A stretch of 6,679 nt of DNA, taken from Desulfobacteraceae bacterium. GTDB lineage: Bacteria > Desulfobacterota > Desulfobacteria > Desulfobacterales > UBA11574. Numbering within the stretch: position 1 is the first letter of the stretch; each line of letters opens with the position of its first letter. The position numbers were made by a program, and so were the translations under genes. The stretch is from NCBI GenBank assembly GCA_030671225.1, contig DAOVAE010000069.1, forward strand, positions 1-6,679, given 5' to 3'. This document shows, piece after piece, positions 1 through 6,679 of the stretch. Below the pieces are notes generated by a model. It made no database searches. It had not been told where the DNA came from and saw only the letters and a list, made by a program, of their open reading frames with translations.

Positions 1-273
1 CTCGCTGTTGCCGGCAAGTTTTACTATGGGACCGGCGACTTTATTCATTATCCCCGTTTTATCAAGGCCTGCGCCAATAATAATGACAGCCATGATAGAG
101 ACTACCGCGTTACTGCTTAATCCTACAAAAGCTTCTTTAGGTGATACCAGACCGATGGTAGGGAGCAAAACCATCATGATAATTCCCACAACATCGACTC
201 TTACCCATTCAAAAACAAATAAAACAACTGCAAAAGTCAGCACAATCATTGTCAAGATCATCTCAGGTGTCAT
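1..273 (-). CDS. SLC13/DASS-family permease, N-terminal part (cut by window edge)
   Basis: Ninety-one N-terminal residues of an integral membrane transporter that continues past the left edge. The start ATG is at 273-271, preceded by an AAAGGGA ribosome binding site nine bases upstream. The protein opens with a hydrophobic helix (about residues 5-21), then a short charged turn (E-W-V-R-V-D), a second helix (about 28-43), the segment G-L-V-S-P-K-E-A-F-V-G-L-S-S-N-A-V and a third helix ending I-I-G-A-G-L-D-K-T-G-I. This order matches the start of SLC13 / divalent anion-sodium symporter proteins (CitT/ArsB superfamily), in which the motif 'GLvSpeEAfsGFsnpAV' is typical. Family members import sulfate, dicarboxylates or other anions with sodium; the substrate cannot be read from this piece. 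It lies 161 bases downstream of a 29-aa membrane protein on the same strand and may share its transcript. An SLC13 permease with internal TrkA-C domains is possible but lies outside the window. Confidence 0.82.
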   Translation of the reverse strand, partial: MTPEMILTMIVLTFAVVLFVFEWVRVDVVGIIMMVLLPTIGLVSPKEAFVGLSSNAVVSIMAVIIIGAGLDKTGIMNKVAGPIVKLAGNSE

Positions 274-306
274 ATCCGGACATCCCTTTCTGATTCTTTT
301 AAAAAG

Positions 307-338
307 TTAATTCTTTGAAATAGTTTAGTTCTTTGAAA
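307..338. repeat. Short tandem direct repeat, 18-bp period
   Basis: TTAATTCTTTGAAA (307-320) is repeated as TTAGTTCTTTGAAA (325-338), 13 of 14 bases identical, with starts 18 bp apart. It lies in the leader between the 29-aa ORF and the permease gene. It could be a pair of protein-binding half-sites or simply AT-rich duplication; nothing else supports a function. Confidence 0.4.
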
Positions 339-434
339 CAAGTCGATTTCAATAAAACTGAAGCGGTAATATTTTCAAAAAGCTACAGTGTTACAATTCT
401 TTATTATTAAGTCCTTTGGTTATCATTAGTATAG

Positions 435-524
435 TCATTTCTTTTTATTCTCTTTTCTGAACTTGAAGCATAGCCATAAAGTAAAGCCAACCATTACCAG
501 CCCAAAAATGAAACGTGTATCCAT
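435..524 (-). CDS. 29-aa single-span membrane microprotein
   Basis: A short ORF of 29 codons plus TGA. It is preceded by an almost perfect ribosome binding site, AAGGAGG, five bases from the ATG (524-522). The product has a short polar start (M-D-T-R), one hydrophobic stretch of about 17 residues (F-I-F-G-L-V-M-V-G-F-T-L-W-L-C-F) and a strongly basic tail (K-F-R-K-E-N-K-K-K). By the positive-inside rule this predicts one inner-membrane helix with a cytoplasmic C terminus. It sits directly upstream of the SLC13-type permease on the same strand, so a role as an accessory subunit is reasonable by analogy with small proteins encoded beside other sodium symporters. No family was recognised. The ribosome binding site, the amphipathic layout and the gene order all argue against a chance ORF. 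Confidence 0.68.
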   Translation of the reverse strand: MDTRFIFGLVMVGFTLWLCFKFRKENKKK

Positions 525-581
525 TTTTTCCTCCTTATTAATTTTCTATAAACAGTTATTCAATGCATAAAATTAAATTTT

Positions 582-594
582 TTGCAATATGAAA
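582..594. promoter_or_regulatory. Half-conserved TTGCA-N3-TGcaa dyad upstream of microprotein gene
   Basis: TTGCAATATGAAA matches the left arm and spacer of the dyad at 2205-2217 (TTGCAATATGCAA) but has a weak right arm. It lies 58-70 bases ahead of the start of the 29-aa ORF, where a regulator of that gene could bind. A single half-conserved copy in AT-rich DNA is weak evidence on its own. Confidence 0.25.
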
Positions 595-605
595 AAGATT
601 TTTAC

Positions 606-656
606 AAAAAAAAAGCAGAAGATCGAAATTTTTAATAAAACCCGAATCTTCTGCTT
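606..656 (-). terminator. Rho-independent terminator of the stress-protein operon
   Basis: Read on the minus strand, AAGCAGAAGAT (656-646) and its exact complement ATCTTCTGCTT (623-613) form an 11-bp stem with a 22-base loop. The stem runs directly into a tract of nine T residues (614-606). It begins 73 bases after the stop codon of the 185-aa gene. It should separate that operon from the microprotein and permease genes further left, fully or as a partial stop. The loop is longer than typical, which lowers predicted efficiency. Confidence 0.8.
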
Positions 657-728
657 CGTCAGTTGCTTGTGATGTTTCAGATTTGCACAATGGAGTAATG
701 ACGGATGACAAATGGCCAATGACTTTTT

Positions 729-1286
729 TTATACCATTGAATAAACGTATAGATTTTGACGCAATCTTTCGCCTTCCTCAATTCTGCTTTCAACACGATC
801 TTCTACTGATTCAGAAACCACAAAAGCTATGTCTCTATACTCTTTTGTGATGACATCCAGGGCTTGATCCTGTTCACTGAACATTATGACGTGATCAAAA
901 GGAATCCCCTTTTCAGCAGCGGCTTCCTGAAATAGGCCGGCATTTTTTTCAGACATGCTCTTAAATTCTTCACAAACCTGATTTCGTGAAGATGAAAACA
1001 GTTTGAATGTTTCGCAGGACAAAGGAGCGGTATTTAAGGCCAGAATTTCATAAGACATCCGCTGCGCCATATCCAGAGCATAGTCTATTATTTCTTTGGA
1101 AAAAGTGCTTTCCCTTCCCAAAACCAGCAGCTTTGTGGGTACTTGTTCTTCCCTTTGCTCTGCCATTGTCTCCATTGCATATTCGGTCTCGCCTGCTTCA
1201 GCAAAGGTAATCGCCTCCTGATACTTGTCCATTTTTTCGCCTGTTCTGCTCAATTTTTGCTTTATTCTTCCAAAAATGCCTGCCAT
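729..1286 (-). CDS. Degenerate universal-stress-like protein with N-terminal TFAEAGE motif
   Basis: The product has 185 residues, with an AGGAGGG ribosome binding site (1300-1294) ahead of the ATG. Residues 1-20 are basic. Residues 25-43 carry the motif A-I-T-F-A-E-A-G-E-T-E-Y-A-M-E-T-M-A-E, shared with the two genes upstream. From residue 52 a UspA-type alpha/beta pattern follows: strand K-L-L-V-L-G, helix I-I-D-Y-A-L-D-M-A-Q-R, strand E-I-L-A-L-N, a long linker with two cysteines, then G-I-P-F-D-H-V-I-M-F and the strand D-I-A-F-V-V-S-E-S. The ATP-binding signature of classical UspA proteins (G-x2-G-x9-G-S/T) is missing and the C terminus ends in a short strand N-L-Y-V-Y, so nucleotide binding is unlikely. 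It is the last gene before a terminator and lies 45 bases after the 168-aa gene, probably in one transcript. The role is unknown beyond a probable cytosolic stress or regulatory protein. Confidence 0.72.
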   Translation of the reverse strand: MAGIFGRIKQKLSRTGEKMDKYQEAITFAEAGETEYAMETMAEQREEQVPTKLLVLGRESTFSKEIIDYALDMAQRMSYEILALNTAPLSCETFKLFSSSRNQVCEEFKSMSEKNAGLFQEAAAEKGIPFDHVIMFSEQDQALDVITKEYRDIAFVVSESVEDRVESRIEEGERLRQNLYVYSMV

Positions 1287-1331
1287 TGTTTTACCCTCCT
1301 ATTATAAATTATAATTTGTTTTTTTCTGTTA

Positions 1332-1838
1332 TTATGATGCGTTAACAACTACCAGCGGGACAGAAAGTTTTTGCTTTATTTTTGCAGGTACTGTATTTTT
1401 CTTTTTAATCCCCGCTATACTTGCACTTTGAGCCGCAAAATCATAAATTGTCAGCACAACATCCCGATTGTAATTGACATAATCAATAATCTCTTTTTCA
1501 GGATTGCCCGATTTAATTGAAAAGTGGCATTGAACGCCTGCTTTTTCCGATTCCGGCAAAAGGCGGTTGATATTCTCTGAGGCCTCAGCCATTATATCTA
1601 TTGCGGTTTCATGTTCGCCGGCTTCGGCAAATGTAGCTGCCACCATGGATCCTTCGATGTATGTCCTGGCAAGATCGGCCTGTTGTCGAATTTTTTTGAT
1701 GTATTTGCTGTAATTTCCCGGCCTGATAATCTGAAAAACATTTAACTCTGCCTTGATCCTTTTGCAAAGCTCCACTGCATAGCTGAATACATTTCGGTCA
1801 GGATTAATACCATCAATGGCTAATAAAACTTTTTTCAT
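1332..1838 (-). CDS. Universal stress protein family protein with internal TFAEAGE motif
   Basis: A protein of 168 residues; the ATG at 1838 follows the ribosome binding site AAAGGGG. The start M-K-K-V-L-L-A-I-D-G is the canonical first strand of UspA-fold proteins with its conserved Asp, followed by helix V-F-S-Y-A-V-E-L-C-K-R-I and strand E-L-N-V-F-Q-I-I. Residues 68-86, A-T-F-A-E-A-G-E-H-E-T-A-I-D-I-M-A-E-A, form the motif shared with the flanking genes and fall in the linker between strand 2 and strand 3. The second half continues as in UspA: C-H-F-S-I-K-S-G-N-P-E-K-E-I-I-D-Y, strand D-V-V-L-T-I-Y and final strand S-V-P-L-V-V-V. The glycine-rich ATP loop is degenerate (A-G-I-K-K-K-N-T-V-P), so this is probably not an ATP-binding member. 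It is the middle gene of a three-gene set, 36 bases after the small ORF. Confidence 0.8.
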   Translation of the reverse strand: MKKVLLAIDGINPDRNVFSYAVELCKRIKAELNVFQIIRPGNYSKYIKKIRQQADLARTYIEGSMVAATFAEAGEHETAIDIMAEASENINRLLPESEKAGVQCHFSIKSGNPEKEIIDYVNYNRDVVLTIYDFAAQSASIAGIKKKNTVPAKIKQKLSVPLVVVNAS

Positions 1839-1874
1839 TTTTATCCCCTTTTGCAGTCGAATAGACCAACGCTG

Positions 1875-2051
1875 CTAAATGCGCATATCCTGTCGGGTTT
1901 CTTCCCTGCGCTGGATACGAACATCTGTGCGTTTCCGGCTTCTTTTTTCCGGTTTATCATGCAGTATCTCCAGAGCGGTATCATGCTCTCCGGCTTCCGC
2001 AAAAGTTATAGCCGCCATCAATCTGTCGAATGTCTCTTTAAATTTAAACAT
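1875..2051 (-). CDS. 58-aa small protein carrying the TFAEAGE motif, first gene of the stress operon
   Basis: The ATG at 2051 is preceded by a strong AAAGGAGG ribosome binding site nine bases upstream, and the ORF ends in TAG at 1877-1875. The 58-residue product begins M-F-K-F-K-E-T-F-D-R-L-M-A-A and contains A-I-T-F-A-E-A-G-E-H-D-T-A-L-E-I-L at residues 14-30. That segment is nearly the same as the motifs in the 168-aa and 185-aa proteins downstream. The rest (31-58) is highly basic and polar, rich in K, R, E and D, without a hydrophobic segment, so it is soluble and perhaps partly disordered or nucleic-acid binding. It is the first gene after the sigma-54 promoter and 36 bases before the next gene. 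No known family was recognised. The conserved motif shared with neighbours, the ribosome binding site and the operon position make it a real gene. Confidence 0.78.
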   Translation of the reverse strand: MFKFKETFDRLMAAITFAEAGEHDTALEILHDKPEKRSRKRTDVRIQRREETRQDMRI

Positions 2052-2106
2052 GTCTGAATTCCTCCTTTAAGCGATATATTTTTTCTTGTCTTTGACTATG
2101 TAACAT

Positions 2107-2122
2107 AGCAACTCCCGTGCCA
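2107..2122 (-). promoter_or_regulatory. Sigma-54 (RpoN) -24/-12 promoter for the stress-protein operon
   Basis: On the minus strand the sequence TGGCACGGGAGTTGCT (2122-2107) matches the sigma-54 consensus TGGCACG-N4-TTGCW at every specified base, with the required ten bases between GG and GC. Initiation about 12 bases further on would fall near 2096 and give a leader of about 45 bases ending in the AAAGGAGG site of the 58-aa gene. Sigma-54 promoters need an AAA+ enhancer-binding activator bound upstream. The dyads at 2204-2305 lie about 110-210 bases upstream of this start, the usual distance for such sites. Confidence 0.85.
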
Positions 2123-2203
2123 AAGATATTAAAATAGGGATATCATATTAATATCATTAATATTGTTATGAAGTTGGAGATGATGATGAAGCTAGAGGCA
2201 ATC

Positions 2204-2305
2204 GTTGCAATATGCAATGCTTTCTAAGGCTATGGCAATATTCAAAATAATATAGACATGTTATGCCATATTGCAAAAAAGAATCGCGATGTTGCATATT
2301 GTAAT
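2204..2305. promoter_or_regulatory. Array of three TTGCA-N3-TGCAA dyads between the stress operon and lon
   Basis: Three related imperfect dyads occur: TTGCA-ATA-TGCAA (2205-2217, perfect arms), TGCCA-TAT-TGCAA (2264-2276) and TTGCA-TAT-TGTAA (2292-2304). Their starts are 59 and 28 bp apart. They lie about 110-210 bp upstream of the predicted sigma-54 start on the minus strand and within 190 bp of the lon start on the plus strand. A second array of the same design stands at 4523-4623. They are candidate binding sites of one transcriptional regulator, possibly the enhancer-binding activator of the sigma-54 promoter; the regulator is not encoded in this window. Confidence 0.55.
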
Positions 2306-2333
2306 AGCAGGTGGCTTGCTTGATAAAAAACCA

Positions 2334-2362
2334 TTGCGTGCCTGATCTTAATCTGTTTTATA
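2334..2362 (+). promoter_or_regulatory. Possible sigma-70-type promoter of lon
   Basis: TTGCGT (2334-2339) and TTTATA (2357-2362) are spaced 17 bases apart, giving a start near 2370 and a leader of about 20 bases before the lon ATG. Both boxes are imperfect and the region is AT-rich, so this is only the best local candidate. Confidence 0.35.
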
Positions 2363-2390
2363 AAGGTAAAAATCTGAATGAGGACAAATT

Positions 2391-4394
2391 ATGCGCATAT
2401 TTAAAAAAGAAAAAGGACAAATTAAGGAACTGTCATCGGAAATAGATGAATTAAAAGAAAATGTTATTAAATCTAAGATGCCGGAACAGGTGGAAAAAGT
2501 AGCCTTTAAGGAAATAGAACGGCTCACGAAAACCAGCCCATCCAGTGCGGAATATACAATCGGCATTAACTATATCGATTATCTGGTGAGTCTTCCCTGG
2601 AATAAAATGACCGATGACAACCTTGATATTAAGAGGGCTGAATCAATTTTGAATGAAGAGCATTACGGGCTGGCTCAGATTAAAGATCGGATTCTCGAGC
2701 ATCTTGCAGTCAGAGTATTAAAGATGTCCCGCCAGCATAAAATATTGGTTGTGGATGATGAAAAAATAACACGTCAGAACCTGGAGCATGTTTTTCAAAA
2801 AGACGGCTATCAAGTCAATACCGCTCAAAACGGAACAGAAGCTTTGACTTTTCTTGAAGAAAGCGCCTTTGATGTCATTGTAACCGATCTTAAAATGGGG
2901 AAAGTCGACGGTATGGCTGTCCTGGAAAAAGCAAAGGCCATTAATCCGGCTACGGAAGTGATTATCATCACCGGATACGCCACGGTGTCAACGGCCATTG
3001 AGGCCATGAAAAAGGGGTCATACCACTACCTGACAAAACCGTTGAAGCTTGATGAAATCAGATCGACTATCCGGAAAGCATTGTTCAAGAAAATGGTCCG
3101 GCTGGAACCCAAAGGCCCTGTTCTTTGTTTTGCCGGACCACCCGGTACCGGGAAAACTTCTCTGGGGATGTCGGTAGCCCGGAGTCTTGAGCGAAAATTC
3201 GTACGCATGTCTTTGGCCGGGATGAAGGATGAATCTGAAATAAGGGGACATCGTAAAAGCTATGTTGGTGCTTTACCCGGCAGAATAATCCAGGAAATTC
3301 GCCGTGCTGAAACGAAGAACCCTGTTATTATGCTCGATGAGATCGACAAAATCGGTCGTGATTTCAAAGGAGACCCTGCCGCTGCGTTACTGGAAGTTCT
3401 TGATCCTGAACAGAATGCCAATTTTGTTGATCATTATCTGGATGTTCCCTTTGATTTGTCACGTGTTATGTTTATCGCCACAGCAAACGCTCTTGATCTG
3501 ATTCCCGGCCCGCTTCTGGACCGGCTGGAGGTTATTACCCTTTTGGGGTATACTGAAGAAGAAAAAGAAAAAATTGCCTCTGACTATCTAATACCGAAAG
3601 AAATAGAGGAAGCCGGGCTTTCGGACAATGCGCCTGTTTTTACTTCAGAGGCAATCCATAAAATCATCAGAGAATACACAAGAGAAGCAGGACTGAGAAA
3701 TCTTAAACGCCAAATATCTTCCATTTGCCGCAAAATTGTCCGGGAACTATTACGCGATAAAAATAAAAATGAGCCGCAAATGATAACTCCCGAAATGGTG
3801 GAGAGCCTGCTGGGTCCCAGGAAATTTTATTTTGAAGTGTCTGAAGCCAAAGAAAGAGTAGGTGTGACAACCGGTTTGGCATGGACTGAAGCGGGCGGGC
3901 AGATTATTTTCATCGAAGCTGCTAAGATGCGAGGAAAAGGGAATCTTATCTTAACAGGTTCTTTGGGTGATGTGATGAAAGAATCTGCTCAGGCGGCAAT
4001 GAGCTATATCCGCAGTCATGCAAGTTCATTAAATATTTCTGACAATATGTTCGAAGAGCATGATATCCATATTCATGTACCGGCAGGCGCAATTCCAAAG
4101 GATGGCCCTTCAGCCGGCCTGACCATTGCTGTTGCTCTTATCTCTTTGTTAACAAACCGTTCATGCAAAAGAAACGTGGCTCTCACAGGAGAATTGACTT
4201 TAAGCGGCAGAATTCTTCCTGTGGGGGGAGTAAAGGAAAAAGTTCTGGCAGCTCACAGAGCCGGTGTAAAATCGGTAGTATTTCCAGCCAAAAACGAGGC
4301 CGACATCAAAGATATTTCTGAAGATATTAAAAAGGATCTTGATATCATCAAAATAGATGAATTAGAGGAGATAGTTGATCTGGTTTTGAATTAG
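2391..4394 (+). CDS. lon: Lon-family ATP-dependent protease with inserted response-regulator receiver domain
   Basis: A protein of 667 residues; the start ATG follows GAGGA by six bases, and an in-frame TGA at 2379-2381 rules out a longer N terminus. Residues 1-115 match the helical neck of Lon (K-M-P-E-Q, P-S-S-A-E-Y, S-L-P-W, H-Y-G-L, L-A-V-R). The roughly 200-residue N-terminal substrate-binding domain of normal Lon (about 780 aa) is absent. Residues 117-234 are an intact NtrC-type receiver: acidic pair D122-D123, phospho-acceptor D166, T194 and K216. Lon then resumes: Walker A G-P-P-G-T-G-K-T (K255), Walker B L-D-E-I-D (D316, E317), sensor-1 N366, Arg finger R378, sensor-2 R436, and the protease domain with catalytic S574 (K-D-G-P-S-A-G) and K617. 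It should be an active cytosolic ATP-dependent serine-lysine protease whose ATPase or gating could respond to phosphorylation. No histidine kinase lies nearby. It is flanked on both sides by the dyad arrays. The Lon identity is certain; receiver control is inference. Confidence 0.95.
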   Translation: MRIFKKEKGQIKELSSEIDELKENVIKSKMPEQVEKVAFKEIERLTKTSPSSAEYTIGINYIDYLVSLPWNKMTDDNLDIKRAESILNEEHYGLAQIKDRILEHLAVRVLKMSRQHKILVVDDEKITRQNLEHVFQKDGYQVNTAQNGTEALTFLEESAFDVIVTDLKMGKVDGMAVLEKAKAINPATEVIIITGYATVSTAIEAMKKGSYHYLTKPLKLDEIRSTIRKALFKKMVRLEPKGPVLCFAGPPGTGKTSLGMSVARSLERKFVRMSLAGMKDESEIRGHRKSYVGALPGRIIQEIRRAETKNPVIMLDEIDKIGRDFKGDPAAALLEVLDPEQNANFVDHYLDVPFDLSRVMFIATANALDLIPGPLLDRLEVITLLGYTEEEKEKIASDYLIPKEIEEAGLSDNAPVFTSEAIHKIIREYTREAGLRNLKRQISSICRKIVRELLRDKNKNEPQMITPEMVESLLGPRKFYFEVSEAKERVGVTTGLAWTEAGGQIIFIEAAKMRGKGNLILTGSLGDVMKESAQAAMSYIRSHASSLNISDNMFEEHDIHIHVPAGAIPKDGPSAGLTIAVALISLLTNRSCKRNVALTGELTLSGRILPVGGVKEKVLAAHRAGVKSVVFPAKNEADIKDISEDIKKDLDIIKIDELEEIVDLVLN

Positions 4395-4522
4395 AAAAAC
4401 AGAAATCTCCGTAATAATTGTGCCCTTGTTGCTTTGCATTTTCTGCAAATTCGATGCTTGAAAGATTCAGGTAGAAAAATTATTTTTTTGAATACCAAGT
4501 AAAAGTAACCATGAATGGAAAC

Positions 4523-4623
4523 GTTGCATTATACAACACAGCAAAGGGGGTAATAAAAGGTCCAACAATATATAACTGTTATAACTTATTACAAAAAAGA
4601 ATACCGGTGTTGCATATTATAAC
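4523..4623. promoter_or_regulatory. Second array of three TTGCA-N3-TGCAA-type dyads
   Basis: GTTGCA-TTA-TACAAC (4523-4537), a weak TAACT-TAT-TACAA (4582-4594) and GTTGCA-TAT-TATAAC (4609-4623) repeat the layout of the array at 2204-2305, with starts 58 and 28 bp apart. From 4578 to 4623 the sequence matches 2260-2305 at about 37 of 46 positions, including an identical ACAAAAAAGAAT-like core apart from one base. The array lies 365-465 bp upstream of the permease start, in a position to serve as distant activator sites for that operon. Confidence 0.55.
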
Positions 4624-4810
4624 GAAACGTTTATAAAATTCGTATTATCAGCCTATGCCAAGGCTTCTTGTTGAGGAAGAAAACACCTAATATTCTTAGA
4701 CAAATTATATGATTGCCCTTTGATAATTCATGCATGTTTTTTATTGACATTATACTGGATGTTCTATAGCTTGCGATCTTTACTTTAATGGCATATGAAT
4801 TTCTTTTTTG

Positions 4811-4890
4811 GACACAGATGAACACAGATTATCAAAATACCTGCCCGCTCGTGCTTCGTATGGCAGGCGGATCTGCGAAAATCTGTGGTC
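4811..4890. repeat. Palindromic dispersed-type repeat (nested stem)
   Basis: An 80-bp unit with twofold structure: the left outer arm ACACAGATGAACACAGAT (4812-4829) pairs imperfectly with ATCTGCGAAAATCTGTGG (4871-4888), and an inner perfect CCTGCC (4840-4845) / GGCAGG (4862-4867) pair closes a GC-rich loop. Base composition of the core is clearly richer in G+C than the surrounding DNA. The ACACAGATxAACACAGAT / ATCTGxGxAAATCTGTG pattern is, from memory, a repetitive intergenic motif in many bacterial genomes. It lies within 100-180 bases of the permease start and could fold in its leader RNA if transcription begins upstream. Confidence 0.6.
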
Positions 4891-4987
4891 TATTTAAATT
4901 AAAGTCGGTTAATTTTGCATAAATTATCATTTACATCAGGCTTCTGCCATGAGAACAAAATACAAAGTCTGATTTTAGGAGGAAGAA

Positions 4988-5938
4988 ATGCGGATTAATG
5001 GTAAGCTGTGGGCCATTATTTTAATCAGCTTGTTCTTGTTGATTTTATTGGCGTTGCCTGCTTTTGCAGAGGTATCAGCCGAGGCGGCTGTAGAAGGCCA
5101 TGCCTGGTGGTTCTGGCCGATTGTACTTTTTGTTGTAACTTTTATTATGGGAATACTTGCCGTACTTGGCGGCGTAGGCGGTGGAGTCCTCTATGTACCG
5201 ATCATCAGCGGGTTTTTCCCTTTTCACCTCGATTTTGTTCGCGGCACCGGCCTTCTTGTGGCTCTTTCCGGCGCACTGGCTGCAGGACCGGGATTGCTGA
5301 AAATGAATCTTGCCAGCTTAAGGTTGGCCATTCCGGTGGCTCTTATTGCCTCCACATTTGCCATCATCGGTGCCATGATCGGACTTGCGCTGCCCACCAA
5401 CATCGTTCAGATCAGCCTTGGAGCCACCATCCTCGGTATTTGTGTTCTTATGCTAACTGCCAAAAAATCCGAAGTCCCGGATGTTCCCAAGGCAGACAGA
5501 CTCTCTTCGGCTCTTAATATATGCGGCGTTTATCAGGAAGCCAGCACCGGCGAGATTATCGACTGGAAAATACACAGAACACCTTTAGGATTGGCTATGT
5601 TCATCCTAATCGGCATTATGGCCGGTATGTTCGGACTGGGGGCCGGTTGGGCCAATGTTCCGGCTCTCAATCTTCTAATGGGAGCACCCCTGAAAATCAG
5701 TGTGGCAACCAGCAAGTTCCTCCTTTCCATCACAGATACTTCTGCAGCCTGGATATATATGAACAAAGGCTGTGTGATTCCCATGATGGTAGTGCCCTCT
5801 CTTGTGGGAATCATGTTAGGTTCTTTCGTGGGTGTCCGTTTGCTCAAAATCGCCAAGCCTACATTTATCCGATGGATGGTGATCGCAATCCTGGCTTTTG
5901 CCGGTATAAAAGCCCTGTCCAAAGGTCTTGGATTTTAA
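4988..5938 (+). CDS. Sulfite exporter TauE/SafE-family permease
   Basis: An integral membrane protein of 316 residues; the ATG follows a perfect AGGAGG (4977-4982) by five bases. Residues 1-27 form a hydrophobic leader ending P-A-F-A before E28, a plausible signal-peptide cleavage site or first membrane helix. About seven or eight further helices follow. The two-fold repeat of the TauE/SafE family (PF01925) shows in G-G-V-G-G-G-V-L-Y-V-P-I at 61-72 and its partner G-L-G-A-G-W-A-N-V-P-A-L at 216-227, each followed by the usual G-T-G / S-V-A-T-S segments. A soluble loop of about 40 residues (159-198) separates the halves. Family members move sulfite, sulfoacetate or other organosulfur anions; the substrate here is not readable. 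It heads a set with a small three-span protein 54 bases downstream and a CBS-domain protein, suggesting a regulated transporter complex. Confidence 0.88.
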   Translation: MRINGKLWAIILISLFLLILLALPAFAEVSAEAAVEGHAWWFWPIVLFVVTFIMGILAVLGGVGGGVLYVPIISGFFPFHLDFVRGTGLLVALSGALAAGPGLLKMNLASLRLAIPVALIASTFAIIGAMIGLALPTNIVQISLGATILGICVLMLTAKKSEVPDVPKADRLSSALNICGVYQEASTGEIIDWKIHRTPLGLAMFILIGIMAGMFGLGAGWANVPALNLLMGAPLKISVATSKFLLSITDTSAAWIYMNKGCVIPMMVVPSLVGIMLGSFVGVRLLKIAKPTFIRWMVIAILAFAGIKALSKGLGF

Positions 5939-5992
5939 TTCAAAATTTAATCGCATGTAAGATAAATAGAATATTTCATCAGGAGAAAACAT

Positions 5993-6421
5993 ATGCAAGA
6001 AAAGACCAATGACCTGTTAAAAGCAACACCCGAACAGATGCTGTATGCTAGAATACTTGAAAAGGGTATGTATTTCGGTCTGCTTATCCTTTTGATAACT
6101 TATGCTCTCTATGTATTTGGCATTATGGATCCCTATATTCCGCTAAACGAACTTTCCAATTACTGGTCAATGAACGTTCATGACTATCTTGAACACACAG
6201 GGATCAAAGCAGGATGGGCCTGGTTGGGAATGCTCAAATATGGAGATTTTATTAATTTTATTGGAGTTGCTATCCTGGCGGGTATTACTATCTTGTGTTA
6301 TGCCGCCATCGTACCGACGTTACTGAAAAACAAGGATAAGGTGTATGCGGTATTGGCCCTTTTAGAAGCCATTATTTTGACCGTTGCCGCCAGCGGAATC
6401 CTTGGCGCGGGCGGTCACTGA
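5993..6421 (+). CDS. 142-aa three-span membrane protein, permease partner (DUF1634-like?)
   Basis: The ATG at 5993 follows AGGAG (5981-5985) by seven bases. The 142-residue product has a polar cytosolic start, a first helix at about 25-44, a roughly 40-residue loop rich in aromatic and acidic residues (Y-W-S-M-N-V-H-D-Y-L-E-H and G-W-A-W-L-G), then helices at about 87-110 and 117-137, with a short glycine-rich tail ending G-A-G-G-H. The size, three spans and position beside a TauE/SafE permease recall DUF1634 proteins, which often accompany such permeases, but this was judged by eye and may be a different small family. The two histidines in the loop (H63, H68) could face the transport path. 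It is probably translated from the permease transcript and acts as a small subunit. Function is unknown. Confidence 0.75.
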   Translation: MQEKTNDLLKATPEQMLYARILEKGMYFGLLILLITYALYVFGIMDPYIPLNELSNYWSMNVHDYLEHTGIKAGWAWLGMLKYGDFINFIGVAILAGITILCYAAIVPTLLKNKDKVYAVLALLEAIILTVAASGILGAGGH

Positions 6422-6496
6422 TATTATATTTCGAAAGTTCAAATCAGGCCGAGCGAGGCAACAAGCTATAAGCTTCAAAGAAAAGGACGATTGTAA

Positions 6497-6519
6497 CCCG
6501 GGGAGTAAAAATTCCCGGG
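6497..6519 (+). other. Stable RNA hairpin between the membrane protein and CBS genes
   Basis: CCCGGGGA (6497-6504) pairs with TTCCCGGG (6512-6519), eight pairs including one G-U, around a seven-base loop GTAAAAA. No T-run follows, so it is not a standard terminator. It stands 29 bases ahead of the CBS gene start and 15 bases ahead of its ribosome binding site, where it may protect or process the mRNA or tune expression between the genes. Confidence 0.55.
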
Positions 6520-6548
6520 AATACAGGTATAAATAAGGAGAATATGTC

Positions 6549-6679
6549 ATGCTGTTAAAAATGAAAATAAAAGACAGGATGATCCCCATAGAGAACTATC
6601 CTACGGTTTCACCGGATGCGACCTTGAGGGAAGCTGCGTTGTCACTGAGAACATCTTTCTGTGAACTTGACAGCGGTAT
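6549..6679 (+). CDS. CBS-domain protein, N-terminal part (cut by window edge)
   Basis: Forty-three codons are visible before the right edge. AAGGAG (6535-6540) lies eight bases ahead of the ATG at 6549. An earlier ATG at 6544 hits a stop after four codons, which fixes the choice between these two; M5 at 6561 is a possible alternative start. The sequence M-K-I-K-D-R-M-I-P-I-E-N-Y-P-T-V-S-P-D-A-T-L-R-E-A-A-L-S-L is the typical opening of a CBS domain (D-x-M-x-P, then a V-x-P-D-A-T-L-x-E-A helix). CBS pairs bind adenosyl ligands and regulate transporters and enzymes. Placed third after a TauE/SafE permease, it may sense nucleotide state for that transporter. Whether it has one, two or more CBS repeats or an extra domain cannot be seen. 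Confidence 0.8.
   Translation, partial: MLLKMKIKDRMIPIENYPTVSPDATLREAALSLRTSFCELDSG

Follow-up and report, generated by a model that had tools for sequence, protein, structure and literature searches.

A Lon protease with a receiver domain between neck and ATPase in a Desulfobacteraceae bacterium, and its candidate two-component control

Architecture and conservation of receiver-Lon

The window analyzed here, a whole stretch of 6,679 nucleotides (positions 1 to 6,679 of the forward strand of contig DAOVAE010000069.1, assembly GCA_030671225.1) from a Desulfobacteraceae bacterium of the order Desulfobacterales, a relative of sulfate reducers, codes for a Lon protease in which a complete response-regulator receiver domain stands between the helical neck and the AAA+ ATPase and from which the N-terminal substrate domain is missing. 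The gene of this protein, hereafter receiver-Lon, is laid out as follows.

2391..4394, plus strand: receiver-Lon protease gene, 667 amino acids and stop, with an ATG start (open reading frame (ORF) call, family matches, structure alignment)
2418..2729, plus strand: helical neck, residues 10-113, the Lon substrate domain being absent ahead of it (alignment)
2739..3098, plus strand: inserted receiver domain, residues 117-236, with D122, D123, D166, T194 and K216 (Pfam and alignment)
3111..3548, plus strand: AAA+ large subdomain, residues 241-386, with K255, D316/E317 and R378 (Pfam and alignment)
3606..3767, plus strand: Lon lid, residues 406-459, with R436 (Pfam)
3783..4388, plus strand: Lon protease domain, residues 465-666, with S574 and K617 (Pfam and alignment)

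Pfam profiles recover Response_reg over residues 118-227 of the 667-residue product at 99.1 bits (cut-off 30.2), followed by AAA at 245-386, Lon_lid at 406-459 and Lon_C at 465-666; these scores, together with the structure alignment, rule out a chance motif match for both the receiver and Lon. Against TIGR00763 the protein scores 763.7 bits (cut-off 608.05), as befits a LonA-type protease, and the N-terminal Lon substrate-binding family is absent from all nine of its Pfam matches (E 0.001). In the alignment to the Bacillus subtilis Lon (3m6a), residues 15-112 correspond to chain positions 7-104 and residues 240-664 to positions 106-528; since the chain thus jumps from 104 to 106, the receiver takes the place of a single residue of canonical Lon. 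The receiver has the full residue set of a response regulator (acidic pair, phospho-acceptor Asp, Thr/Ser and Lys), its closest solved structures are NtrC-type response regulators (1ny5, 4l4u), and its helix 220-236 stops eight residues ahead of the first ATPase strand. Between K255 of Walker A and D316 of Walker B lie 60 residues, a LonA-like spacing rather than that of LonB or LonBA. The initial annotation of this DNA had described a complete receiver between neck and Walker A, away from the LonB-type insertion position, with its five signature residues and those of the ATPase and the Ser-Lys protease intact and the substrate domain lost, and this description is upheld throughout by the profile matches, the alignment and the relatives considered below.

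For comparison, 111 Lons were aligned, namely those of the window, of its own genome and of its relatives along with loci from database scans, a sample drawn from among the matches listed and not a census; locus L037 was omitted because its genome is near-identical to that of L119 (L and G numbers denote loci and genomes). The insert occurs in 32 of the 111 and is 129 or 130 residues long in every one, staying constant among receiver-Lons down to 50% identity, whereas the same junction holds 4 residues in 68 of the 79 canonical rows and 5-23 in the remaining 11. Ahead of the ATPase start, the receiver-Lons have 240-294 open-frame residues, receiver counted, as against at least 350 in 75 of the 79 canonical rows; one canonical row has 644, possibly reflecting another N-terminal fusion. 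D122, D123, D166, K216, K255, D316, E317, R378 and R436 are conserved in all 32 receiver-Lons, at position 194 T is found in 30 and replaced by S in two, and S574 and K617 are kept in all 31 that cover them, one row being gapped there.

In a quick, unrooted tree the 32 receiver-Lons fall on one side of a single branch, with a support of 97 in the Shimodaira-Hasegawa-like approximate likelihood ratio test (SH-aLRT), so repeated independent fusions are not supported within this sample. Their taxon labels span Thermodesulfobacteriota (Desulfovibrionaceae, Desulfomicrobium, Desulfohalobiaceae), Nitrospirota, unplaced bins and relatives of the window, and one (L036) comes from a bin ranked under Myxococcota by the NCBI. 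Chimerism or absence from relatives, which the initial annotation had named as grounds for rejecting the fusion, are both excluded: the junction is identical in 32 proteins from many assemblies, which rules out an assembly chimera, and in two database searches that scored 7999 matches apiece, all 120 listed per search span the insert in one alignment, for a total of 240 of 240. The Lon of L040 was missed by the gene caller and located by tblastn; of nine further loci beyond L036-L046 for which a loose tblastn suggested a receiver, L058 is real and eight are canonical on full alignment.

Sixty relative genomes were scanned, the window's own included, 24 of them from its family and 36 from elsewhere in the order. 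They hold 24 full or near-full receiver-Lon loci in 22 genomes, 16 in the family as against 6 elsewhere in the order. Three further family genomes have receiver-Lon only in part, as three pieces on contig C233 in G020 and as fragments in G014 and G015, due to draft errors or real decay; in the remaining five (G016, G017, G019, G021, G023), all incomplete drafts, it was not found. Two copies each occur in G013 (L126/L135) and G018 (L121/L122). Across a sample of 297 genomes from the phylum, the neck-receiver-ATPase span is complete in 37. Ordinary Lon matches are present in all 60 relative genomes and, besides receiver-Lon, three Lons and one fragment occur in the window's own bin (1.06 Mb, 69% complete). 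Together with the kinase and regulator genes described below, this adds to the case for two-component control.

Partner genes and putative control DNA

Upstream of receiver-Lon lies a divergent row of genes with putative control sites before it, and downstream an exporter gene.

1..273, minus strand: start of an anion transporter (CitMHS), cut by the contig end (Pfam; comparison to L119)
729..1286, minus strand: 185-amino-acid conserved neighbor with a FAEAGE segment and no Pfam match (Pfam, synteny)
1332..1838, minus strand: universal stress protein (Usp) with a FAEAGE segment (Pfam)
1875..2051, minus strand: 58-amino-acid ORF with a FAEAGE segment, first of the divergent genes (ORF comparison)
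2107..2122, minus strand: sigma-54-type promoter TGGCACGGGAGTTGCT, TGGCAC-N5-TTGC with 0 mismatches, directed toward the divergent genes (consensus match)
2205..2217, no strand: palindrome TTGCAATATGCAA, likely activator site 1 (pattern and conservation)
2292..2304, no strand: palindrome-like TTGCATATTGTAA, likely activator site 2, 87 bp from site 1 (pattern and conservation)
4988..5938, plus strand: TauE/SafE-family exporter (Pfam, synteny)

In eight family relatives with longer contigs (L118, L119, L120, L122, L123, L126, L127, L128), the divergent row continues into a histidine kinase and a sigma-54 regulator, which in L119 are of HAMP/HisKA and receiver/sigma-54/Fis type, respectively. The pair is instead downstream of Lon in L039-L045 (Nitrospirota, Desulfovibrionaceae, Desulfomicrobium, unplaced bins) and upstream of it in L038. 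It is found near receiver-Lon in 18 of the 32 loci, and in 12 of the 15 with at least 8 kb of upstream and 4.5 kb of downstream flank. These arrangements support the initial proposal of two-component control, and they make the orphan histidine kinase that it envisaged less likely than one encoded nearby. The next-best match to the Lon receiver is that of a partner-type regulator, 47-58% identical, and 25 of 37 genomes have it no more than 10 kb away; in eight of the 37 it lies on another contig, and in four none is found at E 1e-35. Eight further genomes have a partner-type receiver without receiver-Lon. Thirteen partner regulators keep the A(F/Y)TGA loop, one as SFTGA, and in nine of them D or E replaces the first G. 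Because a motif rule sorted partner regulators whose loop reads DAFTGA into 'other', group counts from the receiver tree were not used.

A comparable trio has been described in Desulfovibrio vulgaris, where, in the accessible parts of PMC3333781 (2011), DVU3303 is a response regulator containing a Lon protease, of unusual domain structure, that adjoins the histidine kinase DVU3304 and the sigma-54-type response regulator DVU3305. That report proposes that DVU3303 may require phosphorylation for activity, mentions stress induction of the system, and lists DVU3305 orthologues in Desulfomicrobium, Thermodesulfovibrio, Thioalkalivibrio, Dechloromonas and others, mostly together with a DVU3303 orthologue. 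DVU3305 is counted among the sigma-54-dependent regulators (PMC4641369, 2015), and in the available text of three papers it controls UspA-type and membrane-protein genes, including an anion transporter (PMC3333781, PMC10102598, PMC4641369). In a mutant screen of 2023, as excerpted, the three genes are co-fit (cofitness >0.9) and all detrimental in chlorate (PMC10102598). The window has the corresponding linkage, with Usp and anion-transporter genes next to a sigma-54 promoter (by consensus only), and so carries what would be the stress and transporter part of such a system.

The transporter is complete in L119 (L119:12545-14356; 604 amino acids, CitMHS/DASS-like), and its two TrkA_C stretches hint at ligand-gated anion transport. 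The case for the control sites rests on exact matches and conservation across loci and not on whole-window counts, which at up to 3 mismatches are unexceptional (palindrome, 9 against 5.2 expected; sigma-54 pattern, 35 against 29.8). Upstream regions were scanned for 29 of the 32 loci, the set leaving out L040 and L058 and the region of L135 being too short. The palindrome TTGCAN3TGCAA with at most 1 mismatch occurs in 23 of the 29 (mean of 100 dinucleotide shuffles, 1.23), a pair of palindromes spaced 84-92 bp in 18 (shuffle mean 0.08) and the sigma-54 promoter in 10 (shuffle mean 0.01). The palindrome motif was itself derived from the window, whose own family supplies about half of these loci, so the loci are not independent. 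The partner sigma-54 regulator, we infer, probably binds the palindromes. No sigma-54 promoter is claimed for the Lon gene itself, which has merely a weak site with 2 mismatches at 2305-2320. In the stretch from the Lon gene to the TauE exporter there are also palindrome-like sites with 2 mismatches each, at 4524-4536 and 4610-4622, and the same regulator may accordingly act on the exporter.

The FAEAGE segments of the window (1986-2003, 1614-1631 and 1188-1205, minus strand) lie in three successive products of the divergent genes, and for this reason the segment was considered as a client tag of receiver-Lon. This idea is weakened by its distribution: the pattern occurs in 19 of 25 genomes with receiver-Lon and 8 of 35 without it, and of the latter eight no fewer than three (G023, G044, G047) have true segments, mostly as tails of single-domain receivers. 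Such tails are present in receiver-Lon genomes too, and elsewhere (L169, L173-L175, others) the segment is found on single-domain receiver tails and small two-copy proteins, often in two-component clusters. Read backward as a control, the pattern gives 3 matches in the 60 genomes. With no Pfam or NCBIfam match over it in the proteins tried, the segment looks like a shared docking or localization module. An ORF like the 58-amino-acid one is seen in 11 of 30 loci. The 185-amino-acid protein neighbors receiver-Lon in 22 of the 32 loci, and a search of solved structures with its profile had no match below E 0.2. After the TauE gene comes a 142-amino-acid protein (5993-6421, plus strand), likewise in L129, and the contig then ends within an ORF (6549-6677, plus strand) that is CBS-protein-like by eye, with no Pfam match.

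Proposed phosphotransfer to the protease and competing readings

The best explanation overall, which we hold with moderate confidence, is that a kinase would phosphorylate D166 of receiver-Lon and thereby switch its ATPase-protease ring. The histidine kinase would be of the sort encoded nearby in relatives and, because the receivers of the regulator and of Lon are close relatives, a single kinase might feed both sister receivers, one on the sigma-54 transcription activator and one on the protease. The fixed length of the insert speaks for mechanical coupling rather than a floppy tether, and phosphorylation would thus act via helix 220-236 to promote the assembly or activity of the ring. The activator would turn on the Usp and transporter genes, and the protease would work in the same direction, probably ridding the cell of an inhibitor or of a target damaged by stress; this direction is suggested by the shared chlorate phenotype of the three D. 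vulgaris genes, polarity permitting. As the substrate domain is absent, clients would be few and specific, or recruited through the receiver.

Several points weigh against this explanation. The kinase/regulator pair is not seen in 14 of the 32 loci, three of which have ample flank (L036, L058, L124). The window itself has no kinase gene, its contig ending within the transporter gene before the pair's expected place, and the best kinase match in its 69%-complete genome is only 36% identical. The receiver tree does not unite the Lon receivers in one clade, and their joint group with the partner receivers has a support of 92, below star, and includes a few other receivers. The structural model is of a monomer, giving no view of ring contacts, with linker residues 237-239 below 50 in the predicted local distance difference test (pLDDT). 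Should the three D. vulgaris genes share one operon, polar effects of the insertions could account for their cofitness, and the open-access literature searched yielded no biochemical study of the receiver-Lon kind, and no phosphorylation or protease assay of it.

Related receivers can pair, as in receiver dimers. As a recruiting hand, the receiver could in this way bind either the kinase or its sister on the sigma-54 regulator, and this partner, or whatever proteins it has bound, would then enter the ring, giving feedback on the signaling system. The missing substrate domain and the frequent proximity of a closely similar partner receiver would suit such a role, which nonetheless appears unlikely; destruction of the activator predicts opposite phenotypes, where all three D. 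vulgaris genes are alike detrimental in chlorate, a likeness that polarity might explain. It is rather improbable that the receiver is structural or active when unphosphorylated, the kinase controlling transcription only and the protease serving as an extra stress Lon with a merely steadied ring: co-regulation with stress genes would suffice for the synteny and the promoter sites, yet a purely structural domain has no need of D166, the acidic pair, K216 and T/S194, which are kept in 32 of 32. That the receiver is a phosphate sink, draining the kinase so that the regulator answers strong signals only, with proteolysis incidental, fits related receivers with a linked kinase but is most improbable given that the residues of the ATPase and of the Ser-Lys dyad are kept wherever a row covers them and that a sink should oppose the regulator's output, which the D. 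vulgaris phenotypes mirror.

Bacterial proteolysis is mostly steered via adaptors and substrate tags; with a receiver forming part of the ring, external signals could reach and switch the degradation machine directly. If phosphorylation of D166 does switch the protease, a sensor kinase would likely turn protein destruction on or off under stress. More tentatively, and with some doubt on our part, the kinase may split its phosphoryl signal between the activator and the receiver that stands in the Lon ring in place of the substrate domain, such that one signal makes stress proteins and destroys chosen ones. In that case receiver-Lon would be the first protease under direct control of two-component phosphotransfer, and its receiver would open the ring as well as select the client. 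The system lends itself to direct testing through its fixed junction, its conserved residues, the linked kinase and the mutant phenotypes already published, and its modular build might be adapted to degradation under signal control.

Comparison with known systems

With canonical LonA (Escherichia coli; B. subtilis 3m6a), receiver-Lon shares the neck, AAA+ module, lid, Ser-Lys protease and 60-residue Walker spacing; it differs in lacking the N-terminal substrate domain and in having a 130-residue receiver before Walker A. A combination of AAA+ and Lon protease without the LonA N-terminal region is likewise seen in archaeal LonB and bacterial LonBA, but the insert of LonB, with its membrane segment, lies inside the AAA+ module, the distance from Walker A to Walker B is 82 residues in LonBA, and the accessible parts of the source mention no receiver for either (PMC9569914). 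In NtrC-type regulators (1ny5, 4l4u), too, a receiver directly precedes an AAA+ ring ATPase, but theirs is a sigma-54 activator, whereas that of receiver-Lon is the Lon unfoldase joined to a protease. In the phosphorylation-switch study of Xanthomonas citri, it is reportedly an ordinary Lon that is modified, as opposed to a built-in receiver domain. That work, entitled 'A Phosphorylation Switch on Lon Protease', presents phosphorylation as switching Lon (PMC5784255, from its available text).

The closest likeness is to the DVU3303 system. The initial annotation knew of no characterized example of the architecture, a view not borne out given the description of DVU3303 in 2011 and its phenotypes in 2023 (PMC3333781, PMC10102598, both in their accessible parts). 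D. vulgaris Hildenborough is not named among the matches listed in one database search with receiver-Lon, and no account of the insertion point and N-domain loss of the DVU3303 kind was found in the open-access literature, as far as its accessible text goes. The receiver-Lon of the window is a further member of a kind in print since 2011, biochemically uncharacterized and not new in architecture. By its published description, as far as available, DVU3303 likewise joins receiver and Lon in one chain, and the Desulfovibrionaceae loci L040 and L045 carry the same insert and fall on the same side of the Lon-tree branch; the difference lies in gene order, the kinase and regulator adjoining the protease gene in D. 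vulgaris and standing at the far end of the divergent genes in the window's family.
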